Assembly (NCBI GenBank): GCA_035653615.1
Contig: DASRBN010000037.1
Location: 1 to 39,735, forward strand
From: Ktedonobacteraceae bacterium
Lineage (GTDB): Bacteria; Chloroflexota; Ktedonobacteria; Ktedonobacterales; Ktedonobacteraceae
Direction of reading: 5' to 3'
DNA length: 39,735 bases
Numbering within the stretch: position 1 is the stretch's first letter; each line of letters opens with the position of its first letter. Below, one piece after another: positions 28,218 through 37,288 of the stretch. The position numbers were made by a program, and so were the translations under genes. The notes beneath the pieces were generated by a model that worked only from the letters and a program-made list of their open reading frames with translations, did not search any database and was not told the origin of the DNA.

Positions 28218-30802
28218 TGCCACTACCGTCACCCAACCTCGACGACCGCGACTTTCGCCAGCTGGTGGAGGAGGCACGCCGCCGTATTATGCAATCTTCC
28301 CCCGGGTGGACAGACCTTTCACCCGGAGATCCGGGGATGGTGCTGCTGGAGCTTTTCGCCTACCTGACGGAGACGATGATTTACCGGCTGAACCGCGTGC
28401 CGGATAAGATGTACATCGAGTTCTTGCGATTGATTGGCATACGCCTGCAACCCCCGTCGGCAGCCAGCACCAGCCTGCTCTTCAGCCGGGCGCGAGCAGA
28501 GGATACTCCGATCCAGATTCCGCGTGGCACGCGTGTGACGCTAAGCCGTTCGAGCGGCGCTAGCGATGCGCTGGTCTTTACGACAGCAGCCAATGCCACT
28601 ATTCCCTCGGGCGCAGCCCAGGTAGAAGTGCTTGCCCATCATTGTGATCTGATCGAGGGCGAACTGGCCGGAACAGGTAGCGGTTTGCCCGGCCTGGTTG
28701 TAAAAGCGCAGAGGCCGCCGATTGTAGCAGCAACAGGTGATGAACTGGACCTGGTTGTCGGTGTCGAAGCGGCGCCTGGCGAACTGGGCGAGCGCGTCCC
28801 GGCTATCAAGTATGGAGATAAGACCTATCGCGTATGGCGCGAGGTGGAAAGCTTTACCAATGTGGGGGATGACCCGTATGTCTACGTTGCCGACCGCATG
28901 GCAGGGATGATTCTGTTCGCCCCCGCTGCGCGTCTCGAGCGTGAAGATGGAAATCTGGAGGAAGCCGCTCACGCGCTGGCGGCTATTCCAGGAGTGAGAC
29001 GCGAGATACGCTTGTGGTATCGGCGTGGTGGTGGCCCGGAGGGAAATGTCGAGGCAAATACGCTCACGAAGCTGAAGGATGCAATTACGGGAGTGCAGGT
29101 CACTAATCCAACCCCGGCAGTTGGCGGGCGTGCCGCTGAAACGTTGGAGAATGCGCTGGTGCGAGGACCGCAGCAGTTGCATTCGCTGCAACGAGCGGTT
29201 ACGGCGCGCGATTTCGAGCTGGCCGCGCTCTATAGCTCAAGGGCAATCGCGCGCGCGAAAGCGCTGACACGGGCAGCTTTGTGGGCTTTTGCTACGCCGG
29301 GTACCGTAGAAGTATTGCTCGTGCCTTATATTGAGGAGGAAAAGCGCGGTGGAGGCCAGGTAACGATTGCTGTCCTGGGAGAACACCAGACGCCAGAGGT
29401 GCGGACATTTGTGCAACAGGTGCTGAACGAGCGCCGGCCGCTTGGAACGACCTGCCTCGTGAACTGGGCGCACTACAAGACGGTTCGTGTGACGGCGCGG
29501 ATTGTTGTGCGGCGCGAAGAGGATCCTCAGGCTGTCAAACAGCGCGTTATCGAGCGCCTGCACTCGACAATCAACCCATTGCCGACGCGCTTCAGTTCGA
29601 CCGGATGGCCCTTTGGACAGGCCTTACGCGCATCGCATGTTTACGATGTGGCATTGACCGAGCCAGGAGTGCGCTGGGTGGACCGGGTGCGGCTCGTGGT
29701 GGATGAGGTTCCTGAAGCGAATGTAGCAGCGATTGTGGCAGATACAACGCAGGCGCGAACCTGGTATGTTGGAAGCGGCCCCACGCTGTTCCGCTCATTA
29801 AACGACGGCGAGGGCTGGGAACCGGCGGGCCGCTTTCCAGATGAGGAGATTACCGGCGTGCAGGCCCACGCAGATCGTGCTGGGCTGATAGCTACCGTCA
29901 CGCGGCTGCCTGGCGATGGGGGATCGCGCTTACATATTTCATGGGATTGCGCTGAGACATGGGGAGCTACGGCCTATACCTTCGCCTTCCAGGTGCAGGA
30001 TATGGCCTGGACGCTGCGCGGGGGAGTGCCGGTGCTGTTGATGGCGACAAGCGCGGGGTTATATGAACTCTCCATGCAGCCGGGAAGCAGCCCGATACAG
30101 GTGCTAGTAGACCGTACAAATCAGGCGCTGGGCTTTTATGCCATAGCAGCAAGCACAGATGTGCGCGGTGTAGTAAACGTCGCCGTCGCGGCCCAGAATA
30201 CGGGAGGCGTCTATCTTTCCAGCAGCGGAGGCTCAACAGGCACGTTCCGGCACACCGGACTGCGCGGAGAAGACATTCGCGAATTGACAGTACAGCATGA
30301 CGGTCCGCGTTCGTTCCTCTGGGCAGGGGCAGCTGCGCCGGGCGGTGATGATCCCGGCAAGGGGTGCTTCACTCGCGAATTACTCGGTTCGGAAGACCCT
30401 CCGAATGGATGGCAGGGATTCGGCAAAAACTGGACCGGGGGGACTTGCCGGTCAATCACGTTTGTAGGCGCAAAGGTTCTGGCCGCCTCTCACCGGTCAG
30501 GAGTGCTACATCTCGATCTACACGCGCACGATGCCGCGTGGCAAGCATCCGATGTAGGATGCGGCCTGCCGCTGCGAGACCCCGGACGCTTCCTTCCGGT
30601 TCTCGCATTGGCGACAGATCCAGAAGGGCGGCTGGTGATGGCAGGTGGAGCGAAAGGAGTTTTTCGCAGCGAAGATGGCGGCACAACGTACTTACCAGCT
30701 TCGAGCAAGGAATTTTCGGACAAAGTGACCCTGCCTGCGACCTGGTTGTTCGTTTCAGGCGAGCATGATATTACGGTGGTAGGTGAAGATGAAGCTGAAT
30801 GA
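28217..30802 (+). CDS. Baseplate J-like wedge protein fused to an Asp-box beta-propeller
   Basis: This 861-residue protein has a gpJ/gp6-type wedge module in its first 500 residues (DLSPGDPGMVLLELFAYLTETMIYRLNRVP at 33-62 split by FAYL; TRFSSTGWPFGQALRASHVYDVAL near 457-480). Residues about 505-855 form a different domain with three Asp-box motifs, SxNDGxxW (527-534), SxDxxxTW (575-582) and SxDGGTTY (818-825), typical of sialidase/BNR or Ycf48-like beta-propellers. J proteins link wedges around the hub; the propeller would point outwards and could bind a receptor, glycan or partner protein. No sialidase catalytic residues are apparent. It overlaps gp25 by 1 bp and the next gene by 14 bp. Confidence 0.88.
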   Translation: MPLPSPNLDDRDFRQLVEEARRRIMQSSPGWTDLSPGDPGMVLLELFAYLTETMIYRLNRVPDKMYIEFLRLIGIRLQPPSAASTSLLFSRARAEDTPIQIPRGTRVTLSRSSGASDALVFTTAANATIPSGAAQVEVLAHHCDLIEGELAGTGSGLPGLVVKAQRPPIVAATGDELDLVVGVEAAPGELGERVPAIKYGDKTYRVWREVESFTNVGDDPYVYVADRMAGMILFAPAARLEREDGNLEEAAHALAAIPGVRREIRLWYRRGGGPEGNVEANTLTKLKDAITGVQVTNPTPAVGGRAAETLENALVRGPQQLHSLQRAVTARDFELAALYSSRAIARAKALTRAALWAFATPGTVEVLLVPYIEEEKRGGGQVTIAVLGEHQTPEVRTFVQQVLNERRPLGTTCLVNWAHYKTVRVTARIVVRREEDPQAVKQRVIERLHSTINPLPTRFSSTGWPFGQALRASHVYDVALTEPGVRWVDRVRLVVDEVPEANVAAIVADTTQARTWYVGSGPTLFRSLNDGEGWEPAGRFPDEEITGVQAHADRAGLIATVTRLPGDGGSRLHISWDCAETWGATAYTFAFQVQDMAWTLRGGVPVLLMATSAGLYELSMQPGSSPIQVLVDRTNQALGFYAIAASTDVRGVVNVAVAAQNTGGVYLSSSGGSTGTFRHTGLRGEDIRELTVQHDGPRSFLWAGAAAPGGDDPGKGCFTRELLGSEDPPNGWQGFGKNWTGGTCRSITFVGAKVLAASHRSGVLHLDLHAHDAAWQASDVGCGLPLRDPGRFLPVLALATDPEGRLVMAGGAKGVFRSEDGGTTYLPASSKEFSDKVTLPATWLFVSGEHDITVVGEDEAE

Positions 30803-31385
30803 AATTGAGCAAATGCTCCCCGGCGTTTTTCAGCGCACGGTACTGGAAGGCACGCCTCTATTTGCCCTGCTGGAGGTAATGGAGGATTTACACGCGCCGG
30901 ACGAAGCGGTGCTGGATCAGCTCGATGCGTTCTTTGATCCATATCGCGCGCCCGATACGTTTGTGCCGTTTCTGGCAAGCTGGGTCGATCTGGATCGACT
31001 CTTACTAGCGGTTCCGGAGGAGTTTGAGGAGACAGCGCCCCCACCGCTGCCGAGCGGGATAGGACGGCTACGCGAACTGGTAGCGGCGGCGACCTTTCTG
31101 GCACAATGGCGTGGTACAGCGAAAGGGTTGCTGCGTTTCCTGGAGACGGCGACGGGAGTGCAGGGATTTGTGATCGAGGAGCAGGTATTAGGCCCTGATG
31201 GAGAGTTCAAGCCCTTTCACCTGCGTGTGCGCGTTCCACAGGAAGCGGCATCGTACCGGATGATGATCGAGCGCATCGTTGAGTCAGAGAAACCGGCCTA
31301 CGTCACCTATGAACTGCTGGTGATGGGTAAAGCGCAGGATAGCAGGCAGGGTGGGGTCAGAGATTCTTCGCTGCGCTCAGAATGA
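30789..31385 (+). CDS. CIS tail protein I-like (gpI)
   Basis: This 198-residue protein is of the phage tail protein I type. It has an N-terminal MLPGVFQRT and LLEVMEDLHAPDEAVLDQLDAFFDPYRAPDTFVPFLASWVDL, and a later LVAAATFLAQWRGTAKGLLRFLETATGV segment, both common in CIS-associated members. It completes the wedge next to gpJ. The ATG at 30789 follows GGTAGGTGA; a GTG two codons upstream is possible. The last residues (RDSSLRSE) and the stop codon are encoded by a copy of dispersed repeat family A (31358-31389), so the native C-terminus was probably replaced or extended. It is the last gene of the overlapping operon. Confidence 0.88.
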   Translation: MKLNEIEQMLPGVFQRTVLEGTPLFALLEVMEDLHAPDEAVLDQLDAFFDPYRAPDTFVPFLASWVDLDRLLLAVPEEFEETAPPPLPSGIGRLRELVAAATFLAQWRGTAKGLLRFLETATGVQGFVIEEQVLGPDGEFKPFHLRVRVPQEAASYRMMIERIVESEKPAYVTYELLVMGKAQDSRQGGVRDSSLRSE

Positions 31386-31952: not shown

Positions 31953-32891
31953 ATGACAAGCCCATTCGCTATCACAGCCGCGACCAATACTGTCCTGTTG
32001 GATAACAACCGCCAGGGCTTGACCTCCTACACGGTTACTAACACGACGAGTCATGCTATTCGTGGACGTGCCCATATTGTTGCCCTGCAAACAACCTCCG
32101 TACCCTGGTTGACGCTGGTAGGGCGGACTGAACGCGAATTCGCCGCCAGTGGTAGCCAGCAATACGTGGTACAAATCAGCGTCCCCCCTGGTGCGGCAGC
32201 CGGAGATTATACCTTCCGCATGGATATGGTGGACCTGGCCGATCCTGATGATAACTTCAGTGAGGGACCCACGGTCAAGTTTGTGGTGCCAGCGCCGGTG
32301 CCGGTGAAAAAGCCATTTCCCTGGTGGATTATAGCGGTCATCATTGGTATATTGATCCTGGTTGGAGCTGGAACCTATGGTATAATCCAGCTTACGCATA
32401 AAAAGCCTGTGGTTACCGCAACACCTACGGTCACTAGGCCCACTCCGACTCCTATGCCCCCAACAGCGACTCCGACCCCAGTATTCAGATTGGGAAACTG
32501 GCAAGGTAGGATCGTACATAACGATGGCCAACCCACAACTTCAGCACTATTGCAGTTGAGTACATTGCAAAATGGCGCATTTACGGGAGGATTGTTTGGG
32601 CCAGGAGTAGGTGAAGGGCCAAGCTCCGGCAATATATCCGGACAAGAAGCTGCCTTGAACTCATTCAGCCCTGGCGCTCAGAGCCGCTTGCAGCAAGCAA
32701 TAAACCAGTACGGGAATGGCTCAGGGATGTATCTAGAATTTACGATTAATTCATATGGGAATCTGGGGATCAATTTCCCATTAAATTCTGTGTTCGATGC
32801 TGTTGTTTTCCCCGATGGCAGTTTACACGGAGTCTGGTTCAAACCGGGCGATACCCAACCTGATGGCTCATTTGTTCTGAATAGACAATAA
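31953..32891 (+). CDS. Membrane-anchored CIS-associated protein, copy 1
   Basis: This 312-residue protein begins without a signal peptide. A beta-sandwich domain of about 115 residues (Ig/NPCBM-like; ATNTVLLDNN, FAASGSQQYVVQISVPPG, AAGDYTFRMDMVDLADPDD) is followed by a transmembrane helix at about 125-147 (PFPWWIIAVIIGILILVGAG), a Pro/Thr linker and a C-terminal outer domain of about 130 residues. The lack of an export signal puts the first domain in the cytoplasm. The next gene encodes a close paralogue. Position directly after the CIS genes suggests a role in docking the particle at the membrane, comparable in logic to CisA of Streptomyces; no homology to CisA is claimed. GAGGA lies six bases before the ATG. 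Confidence 0.75.
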   Translation: MTSPFAITAATNTVLLDNNRQGLTSYTVTNTTSHAIRGRAHIVALQTTSVPWLTLVGRTEREFAASGSQQYVVQISVPPGAAAGDYTFRMDMVDLADPDDNFSEGPTVKFVVPAPVPVKKPFPWWIIAVIIGILILVGAGTYGIIQLTHKKPVVTATPTVTRPTPTPMPPTATPTPVFRLGNWQGRIVHNDGQPTTSALLQLSTLQNGAFTGGLFGPGVGEGPSSGNISGQEAALNSFSPGAQSRLQQAINQYGNGSGMYLEFTINSYGNLGINFPLNSVFDAVVFPDGSLHGVWFKPGDTQPDGSFVLNRQ

Positions 32892-32923
32892 CAGGGTTCA
32901 TTACAACTGAACCCTGTTATTGT
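32885..32923. terminator. Hairpin after copy 1
   Basis: Perfect 16-bp arms (32885-32900 and 32908-32923) with a 7-nt loop; the stop codon of copy 1 lies in the left arm. There is no T-run beyond it on the plus strand, so it may act as a partial terminator or a 3'-end stabiliser. Confidence 0.65.
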
Positions 32924-32976
32924 GGACAAGAGTATGCAAGCATGCTTCAAGTGAAGTAGCTTCGGAGGGAATAATT

Positions 32977-34023
32977 ATGACAAGTCCATTTGCCATCACG
33001 GCTGCAAGCAATACAGTTCTGCTGGACAACAATCGTCAGGCTCAGACTTCCTTTACGGTTTCCAATACGACGAGTCACACCATCCGAGGACGCGCCCACC
33101 TGGTAGTCCAGCCATCCAGCGCGGAACCGTGGTTGAGGATGCAGGGAGAGGCTGAACGCGAATTCGCCGCCAGCGAAAGCGAGCAATACGTCGTTCAACT
33201 TATCGTTCCACCCGGTGTGCCAGCCGGAGATTACACCTTCCGGCTGGATGTGGTAGACCTGGCCAATCCCGATGATAATTTCAGCGAAGGGCCGACGGTC
33301 AAATTCGTAGTACCCGCTCCTGTGCCGGCGAAAAGGCCATTTCCCTGGTGGATTGTAGCCGTTGCAGTAGGCATACTGATCCTGATAGGGGCAGGAACCT
33401 ATGGTCTCGTCCAGCTCAGCCATAAAAATCCCACCGTGGCCTCAACAGCTACGGTCACCAAACCCACACCAACTCCTCTACCTCCTACTCCGACTCCAAC
33501 ACCTAAGCCTCTATTCAGCCCTGGAACCTGGCAAGGACAATTTGATAATGGCCCGATACAATTTTCTTTAATAGTAAACACTATTCAGAATGGCGCAATT
33601 GCGGGAACATTAGATCAGAGCCATTTTGAAGGAGCAACCGTTGAAAACATAACAGGCACCGAAGGTAATTTGAATCTCTTTGCTCCTAATGCCCAGAACC
33701 GCTTACAATTTGCAATTCAGCATTTTGGAAATGGCACCGGGATTTTTGTAGATTTCACGAATCTTTCTTTTGCGCCAGGCTCCAAAGGTATCGCTAATTT
33801 ATGTATAGCTGTTTTAAATTGCTCATTCGATGCAGTGGTTTATCAAGATGGCAGCTTACATGGTGTTTATTTCTATCCTGGCCATACTCAGCCGGATGGC
33901 ACGTTTGTTTTAGATAAAATATCACAAGGGTCTATTCCAACCGAATATCCACCCAATTTGTTGAATGCTCCTCTACCTTCAGGGTCACGAGATTCTTATG
34001 TCAAGGATAGCGCTGTTCTTTGA
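32977..34023 (+). CDS. Membrane-anchored CIS-associated protein, copy 2
   Basis: This 348-residue paralogue of the preceding protein has the same plan: a cytoplasmic beta-sandwich domain (about 1-118, most residues identical), a transmembrane helix (about 125-147), a longer Thr/Pro linker (TPTPLPPTPTPTPKP) and an outer domain. The outer domains share only scattered residues (GxWQG, NGxIxGxL, FDAVVxxDGSLHGVxFxPG, QPDG), so they have diverged faster than the inner domain. Copy 2 has about 25 extra C-terminal residues. GGAGGGA eight bases before the ATG is the binding site; the frame is open further upstream. The pair arose by tandem duplication. Confidence 0.75.
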   Translation: MTSPFAITAASNTVLLDNNRQAQTSFTVSNTTSHTIRGRAHLVVQPSSAEPWLRMQGEAEREFAASESEQYVVQLIVPPGVPAGDYTFRLDVVDLANPDDNFSEGPTVKFVVPAPVPAKRPFPWWIVAVAVGILILIGAGTYGLVQLSHKNPTVASTATVTKPTPTPLPPTPTPTPKPLFSPGTWQGQFDNGPIQFSLIVNTIQNGAIAGTLDQSHFEGATVENITGTEGNLNLFAPNAQNRLQFAIQHFGNGTGIFVDFTNLSFAPGSKGIANLCIAVLNCSFDAVVYQDGSLHGVYFYPGHTQPDGTFVLDKISQGSIPTEYPPNLLNAPLPSGSRDSYVKDSAVL

Positions 34024-34174: not shown

Positions 34175-34203
34175 TTTACAACTCTGCTCCAATGTGCTAT
34201 TAT
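34175..34203 (+). promoter_or_regulatory. Promoter of tRNA-Ala(CGC)
   Basis: TTTACA (34175-34180), a 17-nt spacer, then TATTAT (34198-34203). The start would fall a few bases before the tRNA at 34214. Confidence 0.6.
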
Positions 34204-34213
34204 CATCTTGCCA

Positions 34214-34286
34214 GGGGATGTAGCTCAGCTGGGAGAGCGCGACAATCGCACTGTCGAGGTCAGGGGTTCGAGCCCCCTCATCTCCA
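34214..34286 (+). tRNA. tRNA-Ala, anticodon CGC
   Basis: This is a complete cloverleaf. The acceptor stem pairs 34214-34220 with 34279-34285 and has the G3:U70 wobble that specifies alanine. The D-stem is GCTC/GAGC, the anticodon stem CGACA/TGTCG, and the 7-nt loop ATCGCAC reads anticodon CGC (34247-34249, codon GCG). The T-arm is regular and the discriminator is A. The 3' CCA is not encoded. Confidence 0.95.
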
Positions 34287-34307
34287 CCCTGTACAAGCCA
34301 TAATGCC

Positions 34308-34341
34308 TTGCAAATCGCAAATCATTGTGGTATAGTATAAT
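34308..34341 (+). promoter_or_regulatory. Promoter of the T-box / tRNA / leuS unit
   Basis: TTGCAA (34308-34313) followed after 17 nt by TATAGT (34331-34336). A perfect TATAAT overlaps at 34336-34341. Either -10 box places the start just before the T-box stem I. Confidence 0.55.
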
Positions 34342-34583
34342 GCACAGAGGAAGTAAGCAAGAGCAAAGCAGTGAGCAGGAGTAGTAGGTCAATCTCTTGC
34401 AGAGAGTAGCCGGGTGGTGCAAGGCTACAACCTTTTGACCGAACTCGCCTGTGAGCAGCAAGCGTGAAGCATTCATTCTTCGATGGTACTTATGTACCGT
34501 AAGAGTAATAGCGCTTGCCGGAACGCCCGTTACCGCGTAGAATGAGTTTCGTTCTCGGACGCTTAACAGGAACTAGCAGATAT

Positions 34584-34659
34584 GGGCCTGTAGCGCAGCT
34601 GGAAGAGCGCATCCATGGCATGGATGAGGTCAGGGGTTCGAGCCCCCTCAGGTCCACCA
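34584..34659 (+). tRNA. tRNA-Ala, anticodon GGC, inside the T-box leader
   Basis: The acceptor stem pairs 34584-34590 with 34649-34655 and has the alanine-specific G3:U70 pair. The anticodon stem is CATCC/GGATG and the loop ATGGCAT reads GGC (34617-34619, codon GCC). The T-arm is identical to that of the first tRNA-Ala. The discriminator A is followed by an encoded CCA (34657-34659). The D-stem (GCGC/GAGC) has a G12-A23 mismatch. The gene has no obvious promoter of its own and would be transcribed from the T-box promoter. Confidence 0.92.
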
Positions 34660-34703
34660 TACGCGTCCAGAATGAATAAATTTGGGTGGTACCACGGAAG
34701 AAA

Positions 34704-34739
34704 AGCCTTTCGTCCCTTGCGGATGAAAGGCTCTTTTTT
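34704..34739 (+). terminator. Rho-independent terminator of the T-box
   Basis: AGCCTTTCGTCC (34704-34715) pairs with GGATGAAAGGCT (34721-34732), including one G-U pair, and is followed by CTTTTTT. It can be replaced by the antiterminator formed with 34683-34697. Confidence 0.92.
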
Positions 34740-34816
34740 ATTGTTTCCCTGTTTGTTGAAGTTGTCCCAAATCAAATCGTTATTATCCATGTTGTTTAGA
34801 GAAAGGGGGGTGTATT

Positions 34817-37288
34817 ATGATTACCCGAACCAGGTATAACCCCAAAGAAATCGAAGAGAAGTGGCAGACGCAGTGGGAGGCCGAACAATTGTATCATGCT
34901 CCCGATGACTCGCCGAAACCAAAATTCTATAACCTGGTGATGTTGCCCTACCCGTCCGGTGACCTGCATATCGGCCACTGGTACAACTTCGCGCCCGCCG
35001 ATGCCTATGGGCGTTTCATACGCAGGCATGGCTATAATGTCATGCAGCCCATCGGTTTCGACGCCTTCGGTCTGCCCGCCGAAAATGCCGCCATCTCGCG
35101 TGGTGTTCAGGCGCGCACGTGGACGCTGGCAAATATCGAAACCATGCGCAGGCAGCTGCGCCGGATGGGTGCTGCGTGGGATTGGGAGCGCGAAATCATT
35201 TCGTGCTTGCCCGATTACTACAAATGGACGGAATGGCTGTTCCTGCAATTCTATAAGCACGGGCTGGCCTATCGTACTAAGGCACCTGCCAACTGGTGTC
35301 CCAGCTGCAATACCACGCTGGCGAACGAGCAGGTACTGGCCGATGGCACCTGCGAGCGCTGTGGCAGCCAGGTGATTCGCAAGGAGATCGACCAGTGGCT
35401 GCTGCGAATCACCAACTATGCCGAGGAGCTGCTGGACTTCTCCAAGATCGAGTGGCCTGAAAAGACCGTGACCATGCAGCGCAACTGGATCGGGCGCAGC
35501 GAGGGAGCTGAGATTCGTTTCTACGCCGAGGTCAATGGGCAGCGCGAGGAGATTCCGGTCTTCACCACGCGCCCGGATACGATCTACGGCGTCACGTTCT
35601 TTGTGCTGGCGCCGGAGCATCCGATGGTCGAAAAGATCACCACGCCCGAACATAAGGCCGAAGTCGATGCCTATGTGGACCAGGCAAGGCACATGACCGA
35701 GATCGAGCGCATGAATACAGAAAAGGAGAAGACGGGCGTCTTCACCGGTGGTTATGTAACCAATCCGGTCAGCGGCGAGCAGGTTCCGGTATGGATCGCC
35801 GATTACGTGCTGATGGGCTATGGTTCGGGCGCAATCATGGGTGTTCCGGCGCATGACCAGCGCGATTTCGAGTTTGCCCGCAAGTTCGGCATTCCCATAC
35901 GCGAGGTAATTCGGCCAGCCGGCGAGGAGCCGAGCGATCCGGATACCTGGACTGAGGCGAAAGTGGCGCTGGGCGTGATGGTTAACTCCGGCCCATTCGA
36001 CGGCACGCCCGCGGATGAGGCGATTACCGCCGTTACCCGGTACGTAGAGGAACAGGGCATTGGCAAATTCATGGTTTCCTATCGCCTGCGCGACTGGCTG
36101 ATCAGCCGCCAGCGATATTGGGGTTCGCCCATCCCTATCGTGTATTGTCCAACGCATGGGACAGTGCCGGTACCAGAGGATCAACTGCCGGTGATCCTGC
36201 CGGAAAATGTGGAGTTCAAGCCAACCGGAGAGTCACCGCTGCGCTACGAGCCTGACTTCGTCAACACAACCTGCCCAATTTGTGGCGGTCCGGCGACGCG
36301 AGAGACCGATACCATGGACACCTTCATCTGTTCGTCCTGGTACTTCCTGCGCTATGCCGATCCACATAACGAGCAGCAGGCATGGAGCCAGGAGGCGATG
36401 AAACGCTGGCTGCCCGTCGATCAATACATCGGCGGGCCGGAACACGCAGTCCTGCACCTGCTGTACGCGCGTTTCTTCATCAAGGCGCTGCGCGATATGG
36501 GCTACCTGGACTTCGACGAGCCGTTCACACGCCTGTATCACCAGGGTATGGTGCTGGGACCCGATGGTCAGAAGATGTCCAAGTCGCATGGCAATGTCGT
36601 GGCTCCCGACGAATACGTCGAGAAGTACAGCACCGACGCGGTACGCTGCTACCTGATGTTCATGGGACCGTTCGATCAGGGCGGCACCTTCAAGGCCGAC
36701 AACCTGGAGGGCGTGTGGCGCTTCCTGAACCGCTTCTGGAACCTGGTCACCGAGTCCTGGATCGATAATCCAACCTTTGAGGAGACCGGCGAAAGCAAGA
36801 CAATCGAGCGGCTGCGCAATAAGACCATCAAGCGCGTGACCGAAGACCTGAGCAATTTCCGCTTCAACACGGCGCTGGCCGCGCTGATGGAATGCAACAA
36901 CGCGCTGATCAAGCAGCAAAACGAGCCGGTGGCGCGCAGCAAAGCCTATCGCGACACGCTGGAGACGATGATAGAACTGCTGGCGCCGATGGCTCCATAC
37001 ATCACCGAGGAGTTGTGGCACCTGACGGGTCACATCGGCAGCGTCCACGTGAGTGAATGGCCTGCATATGACGAGGCCCTGACGCGCGACGAGACCTTCA
37101 CGCTGGTCGTCCAGGTCAACGGCAGGGTACGCGAGCGCATTGAAGTCGCCTCGGGCACCAGCGAGGGTGAGATTCGCATGCTGGCCCTGGACAATCCGCG
37201 TGTGGCCTCTTTCATCGGTGATGCCACGGTCCAGAAGGTCGTTTACGTGCCTGAGCGACTGATTAATATTGTGGTAAGAAACGAGTAG
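34817..37288 (+). CDS. leuS: Leucyl-tRNA synthetase
   Basis: This 823-residue class I synthetase charges tRNA-Leu in the cytoplasm. The ATP-binding HIGH motif is at 51-54 ([14 protein letters not shown]) and KMSKS at 586-590. A zinc-binding insertion appears as CPSC ... CERC (about 157-180). The CP1 editing domain occupies roughly 225-420, with the usual [20 protein letters not shown] segment and [14 protein letters not shown] second Cys pair lies near [17 protein letters not shown]. The anticodon-binding and C-terminal domains follow. The length is normal. The ATG follows GGGGGG seven bases upstream. Expression is set by the T-box leader with a CTC specifier, and a 26-bp hairpin ends the unit. 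Confidence 0.98.

Follow-up and report, generated by a model that had tools for sequence, protein, structure and literature searches.

In this Ktedonobacteraceae genome, the transcriptional leucine T-box that forms the leader of leuS carries a complete tRNA-Ala(GGC) gene in place of the tip of its stem III. By nearly every testable defining feature the leader is a T-box riboswitch, and its architecture appears to be new. The analysed stretch, here called the window, comprises 39,735 nucleotides of contig DASRBN010000037.1, and the parts of the leuS locus described below lie on its forward strand. At the level of sequence, the anatomy of the locus, its conservation, its co-linearity and its covariation are established.

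A full-length T-box leader encloses a tRNA-Ala gene

When the whole window was compared with all Rfam families, three matches were obtained, namely two tRNAs and one T-box leader. The latter was a single RF00230 match at 34362-34720 (cmscan, 100.6 bits, E 3.4e-21), which covered model positions 1-219 of 219 and scored above the gathering score of 93. Its alignment crossed a 117-nt insertion at stem III, and this insertion contained the tRNA-Ala(GGC) gene (34584-34659). A previous sequence-only reading had placed such a tRNA inside a leucine T-box and had proposed a covariance search of the leader. The search found stems I and II upstream of the tRNA, within one RF00230 match and alongside the tRNA match, and bore out both the positions and the parts.

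The alignment and the sequence placed stem I, with its AGAGA motif and the distal GGUGGUG, at 34366-34457. The specifier codon CUC (Leu) was found at 34444-34446, on the 3′ side of the specifier loop (GAA-CUC-GCC). Stem II occupied 34458-34518, with GCAAGCG/CGCUUGC pairing, and was followed by a stem IIA/B region containing CCGUUA (34519-34532). Downstream of stem III, the alignment positioned the antiterminator at 34684-34716, with the T-box bulge UGGU at 34687-34690, and a terminator scan identified an intrinsic terminator at 34704-34739. Since the antiterminator and the terminator have UUUCGUCC in common, the two structures are mutually exclusive. The downstream ORF, leuS (34817-37288, 823 aa), encodes what we take, from its sequence and general knowledge, to be leucyl-tRNA synthetase (LeuRS), and its first 150 aa matched LeuRS-type ORFs in 41 out of 41 genomes searched. 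The CUC specifier fits this gene and is matched by the tRNA-Leu(GAG) gene of the genome, whose acceptor end is GAGGGC-A, with A as the discriminator; after CCA addition it would read ACCA, which is complementary to UGGU. Across relatives, A-CTC lay 5′ of the tRNA in 82 embedded loci and the specifier was CUC nearly everywhere.

None of the other 17 T-boxes of the same genome had a tRNA inside. The genome also carries a second LeuRS-like gene (L001, contig C11; 46 percent identity over the N-terminal part), which is preceded by an ordinary T-box that lacks a tRNA. Codon usage of leuS was distinctive. CTC and CTT, which the sensed tRNA-Leu(GAG) would be expected to read, did not occur among its 53 leucine codons (family median, 3 percent), and they represented roughly 17-42 percent of the leucine codons in other T-box-linked ORFs of the genome. 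Such avoidance may keep leuS translatable under the very starvation to which it responds, or it may reflect high expression. Elsewhere in the window, the interval 31953-34023 contains two similar ORFs arranged in tandem (MTSPFAITAA...LLDNNRQ), both of which include a transmembrane-like stretch, and the ORF before them (30783-31385) may be phage-tail-like.

The tRNA gene caps stem III

Folding of the window leader showed that the arms of stem III pair over 14 bp, with the tRNA in the loop. The 5′ arm, UUCGUUCU-C-GGACGC, was located at 34548-34562 by folding and by the covariation of stem III across loci, and the 3′ arm, GCGUCC-AGAAUGAA, at 34663-34676 by folding. According to two T-box publications (PMC7583486; PMC7778990), stem III belongs to the discriminator and is flanked by RRRxG purines before it and AA after it; the former describes it as indispensable for the discriminator (PMC7583486). 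The 5′ purine motif ends in U in the window and in G in relatives (GAGTG, GAGAG, GAGCG), where the AA is kept. The tRNA-Ala(GGC) thus caps a working helix of the discriminator domain, and because stem III is part of that domain, the insert does not lie in a gap between the sensing and the deciding halves. The sequence-only reading had put the tRNA between sensor and terminator; its location inside the T-box held, while the supposed gap gave way to a tRNA at the tip of stem III.

Stem III was examined in 114 loci as a 6-bp helix whose ends were fixed by the purine motif and by the closing AA, and the right arms were then permuted among loci. A perfect helix was present in 50 of the 114 loci versus 9.6 expected after permutation (sd 2.4, max 15), a comparison that serves as a guide and gives no strict probability because the loci are related. 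All six anchored positions showed several standard pair types. By this measure, the helix that brackets the tRNA covaries. A duplex-energy test, in which 60-nt left arms were combined with non-cognate right arms, gave a weak result (23% of the loci past the 95% level), since long left arms pair by chance. The space around the tRNA was tight in many Bacillota, with approximately 9-12 nt from the start of stem III to the tRNA, and some of them had a stem III of only about 6-7 bp.

The leader and the tRNA follow a probable common promoter

A promoter-like sequence (TTGCAA-17-TATAGT, 9/12 consensus, with TG before the second hexamer) was located at 34308-34336, just ahead of the leader, and its hexamers recurred before stem I in most loci of the family. 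Among 59 loci without an upstream tRNA, 41 had a promoter matching at least 10/12 consensus positions just before stem I, and only 1 did so after shuffling. Between stem I and the tRNA, no site of at least 10/12 was found in any of these 59 loci, and a cruder count that included loci with an upstream tRNA gave 3 out of 75. A separate tRNA promoter was accordingly rejected as a candidate. The sequence-only reading had named a separate promoter and terminator for the tRNA as the arrangement that would speak against it, and the sequences of these loci do not point to one. In the window itself, a weak internal promoter-like site (34515-34543, 9/12) was present, and such sites were not conserved.

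Further upstream, a tRNA-Ala(CGC) gene outside the T-box was identified at 34214-34288 (ARAGORN; Rfam, 61 bits). It is preceded by a promoter-like site, TTTACA-17-TATTAT (34175-34203, 10/12 consensus), which keeps its position across the family, and it is probably an upstream member of the same unit as the T-box leader. A tRNA-Ala(CGC) just upstream of the T-box was conserved within the family and also in many Chloroflexota, as seen in five example loci. In several Chloroflexota loci, only 1-35 nt, and no promoter, lay between the end of this tRNA and stem I, so it seems to be co-transcribed there, and in some members of the phylum one leader transcript may carry both alanine tRNAs.

The nested tRNA appears intact and is often the only one of its kind

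The nested gene was called by ARAGORN and by Rfam (53.5 bits), two independent predictions that agreed. Its cloverleaf, its GGC anticodon (34617-34619) and its G3:U70 pair, the identity pair for AlaRS, were all present, and the CCA is encoded. G3:U70 and A73 were found in 89 out of 89 embedded tRNAs scored, of which 68 encoded the CCA and 21 did not. By these features the embedded tRNAs are intact.

An inventory of the genome, based on an Rfam search and on ARAGORN applied to stretches, yielded 47 tRNA genes, and the nested gene was the sole tRNA-Ala with anticodon GGC. Among 40 other genomes, a tRNA-Ala(GGC) pattern matched in 35, and in 32 of these the single match was the nested gene. Within the family of the window, tRNA-Ala(GGC) was single copy in 13 out of 21 genomes and had a second copy elsewhere in the remaining 8, which means that a genome need not depend on the nested gene alone for this tRNA. 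In some bacteria, tRNA-Ala(UGC) reads further alanine codons.

The nested arrangement recurs in several phyla

A search of relatives found LeuS-type genes in 40 genomes, and the loci of 29 of these were retrieved. Whenever a same-family locus had enough upstream DNA, cmscan placed the tRNA-Ala(GGC) inside a full-length T-box (19 out of 19), in agreement with what the sequence-only reading had led us to look for in the leuS leaders of relatives. Nesting was also present in two more same-family loci and in one locus of another family of the same order.

We then scanned 84,980 GTDB species genomes with a tRNA-agnostic pattern, consisting of a generic T-arm followed by a T-box core within approximately 75 nt. 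Among the matches listed (120 stretches), a real tRNA occupied the site in 91, and it was tRNA-Ala(GGC) in 90 and tRNA-Ala(CGC) in one; no other isoacceptor was found beside a T-box core among these 91 tRNAs. The nested loci among the matches listed belonged to Chloroflexota, Thermomicrobiota, Bacillota, Atribacterota, Caldisericota, Coprothermobacterota, Armatimonadota and one Actinomycetota bin. All 21 pattern loci tested with Rfam gave one full-length T-box across the tRNA, and a full-length Rfam T-box spanned the tRNA in 43 relatives. Pattern matches occurred in 49 out of 63 genomes from the class of a Thermosyntropha genome, 22 out of 60 from the class of a Desulfofundulus genome, 18 out of 50 from the phylum of an Atribacteria genome and 52 out of 400 across the phylum of the window, a few of the latter being expected by chance. 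Conservation of the nesting in same-family loci and in several phyla excludes chance as its origin, and an annotation artefact was likewise ruled out by the one covariance match that spans the insert and by the recurring layout.

In most nested loci among the matches listed, leuS was directly 3′ of the T-box. Where another gene comes first, it appears to be either an acyl-CoA synthetase-like gene, with an ORF of LeuRS size behind it in two loci, or, in three loci, a gene that resembles a branched-chain aminotransferase. An Anaerolineales locus presented a tRNA-Ala(CGC), a T-box core and a terminator before an aminotransferase-like gene and leuS; stem I was absent upstream, which leaves half a T-box. 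Seven Exiguobacterium T-boxes had in common a GTTCGAGCC...GGGAACGAGGGTGG element, conserved among them and placed immediately upstream of the core, and no tRNA was found at this element in any of the seven loci.

A sister family belonging to the order of the window genome showed no T-box core ahead of leuS, and Rfam detected no T-box in the loci tested. Five genomes of this family keep the order promoter, tRNA-Ala(GGC), terminator and leuS, with a terminator shaped like that of a T-box; neither stem I nor a T-box core was found in these five, which look like a decay intermediate. Three other genomes of the family have the tRNA-Ala(GGC) elsewhere with its own terminator. That tRNA and terminator outlive the switch is as expected if the terminator serves both. 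In a LeuRS tree, the sister family adjoined the nested relatives and the branching roughly followed the phyla (9 label changes, minimum 6), a pattern compatible with an old, vertically inherited arrangement and later losses. Joint transfer of the leader with the gene is another possible history.

A switch for leuS that would also be a tRNA precursor

We consider it likely that every initiation at the leader promoter yields a tRNA-Ala precursor and that the leucine switch decides only on readthrough into leuS. Since the tRNA lies upstream of the terminator and follows the leader promoter, it should be transcribed regardless of leuS readthrough, in the short terminated and the long leuS transcripts alike. 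Co-transcription, tRNA release and the response to leucine, which we infer from the sequence, would combine as follows. RNase P and 3′ processing would free the tRNA-Ala from both transcript lengths, while the binding of uncharged tRNA-Leu(GAG) to this RNA during its synthesis would determine only whether the polymerase continues into leuS. The tRNA would already be folded when the antiterminator forms, and the pairing of stem III would keep the discriminator intact around it. The T-box terminator would double as the tRNA terminator. Because the switch acts downstream of the tRNA, it should not change tRNA output, and tRNA supply would depend on how strong the leader promoter is rather than on leucine. 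Two expectations of the sequence-only reading are affected. Its proposal that tRNA-Ala would be made whether or not leuS is read agrees with this order of elements. The coupling that it envisaged between tRNA supply and the leucine switch would survive as a shared promoter and terminator and would not operate through the switch itself.

That reading had also predicted that tRNA processing would cut the sensing half away from the decision half. As a paired helix of 14 bp flanks the tRNA, excision would nick the RNA and need not separate the two modules, and stem III could hold both halves together afterwards. A related possibility is that excision is itself a regulatory event, in which RNase P and 3′ processing break stem III; we regard this as unlikely, although if true, tRNA maturation capacity would set a time window or a ceiling for leuS antitermination, a built-in self-destruct. 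Only slightly less credit goes to the wider form of this idea, in which nicking or opening of stem III, a part of the aminoacylation-sensing discriminator, serves as a timer or feeds RNase P or tRNA processing capacity into leuS readthrough as a further input. The tRNA sits exactly in the helix described as indispensable in the T-box review (PMC7583486), and the short stem III of some Bacillota, with the tRNA about 9 nt from its start, would favour such an effect. Nevertheless, with only some 80 nt between the tRNA and the terminator, the decision is probably made before cleavage, and the helix of the window could survive excision.

The arrangement could also be explained by two separate overlapping genes, with a tRNA promoter inside the leader and an independent T-box. 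The internal site at 34515-34543 would fit this explanation, but it is made very improbable by the lack of any stronger site between stem I and the tRNA in the 59 loci, by the short distance from the start of stem III to the tRNA in many Bacillota and by the Chloroflexota loci in which a tRNA-Ala(CGC) abuts stem I with no promoter between. Another explanation would make the nested tRNA-Ala a decoy in cis, whose ACCA end competes with tRNA-Leu for UGGU and adds alanine sensing. The invariant A73 among the scored tRNAs would allow this pairing, and the triplet after the CUC specifier is GCC, an alanine codon, in 57 out of 82 loci. However, it is GTC, ACC, ATC or another triplet in the other 25, the CC of GCC is paired within stem I in the Rfam model, the CCA is missing from 21 of the 89 genes, and the end of a precursor differs from a free 3′ end, all of which render the decoy highly improbable. 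A dual Leu/Ala specifier, CUC-GCC, was likewise rejected, since GCC is not conserved and is located within the stem I helix. The loop of stem III is permissive, and insertions are known in every T-box domain (PMC7583486), which would suit a neutral insertion in one lineage with no consequence. Conservation already contradicts neutrality, however, since one tRNA isoacceptor recurs at this position in several phyla, often with no other gene copy, and stem III covaries; its probability is negligible.

Relation to known RNAs and significance

The leader shares with transcriptional leucine T-boxes of the leuS type (RF00230) a stem I with a CUC specifier and an AG bulge, stems II, IIA/B and III, and a UGGU antiterminator that excludes the terminator. 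It differs in that the apex of stem III is a full tRNA gene for another amino acid and that the leader would also be a tRNA precursor. In polycistronic tRNA-mRNA transcripts and tRNA operons, a tRNA is excised from a longer transcript that may include a coding gene. The likeness to the present locus lies in such an excision, whereas here the tRNA is within a structured regulatory RNA, in the loop of an essential helix, and would use the terminator of the switch. The leader-trailer helices of rRNA, and the tRNAs in rRNA spacers, also involve a helix that brackets an RNA later cut out; here, that helix belongs to the working parts of a switch that controls a gene. A review that covers tandem and inserted T-box domains notes stem III insertions as a class (PMC7583486), and neither the passages searched in this review nor TBDB (PMC7778990) mention a tRNA gene among the insertions. 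No earlier report of a tRNA gene inside a T-box was found in the searchable open-access full text, and priority is not certain.

Nested tRNAs explain part of the uncharacterised stem III insertions of T-boxes, and they open to experiment how a switch that acts during transcription tolerates, in one of its working helices, an RNA that folds fast and is excised by enzymes. The nested gene is often the sole one for the tRNA expected to read GCC and GCU, and deletion or disruption of the leader would also remove this often single-copy tRNA. One RNA would thus serve as a tRNA-sensing switch and as a tRNA precursor, a double use kept across several phyla.
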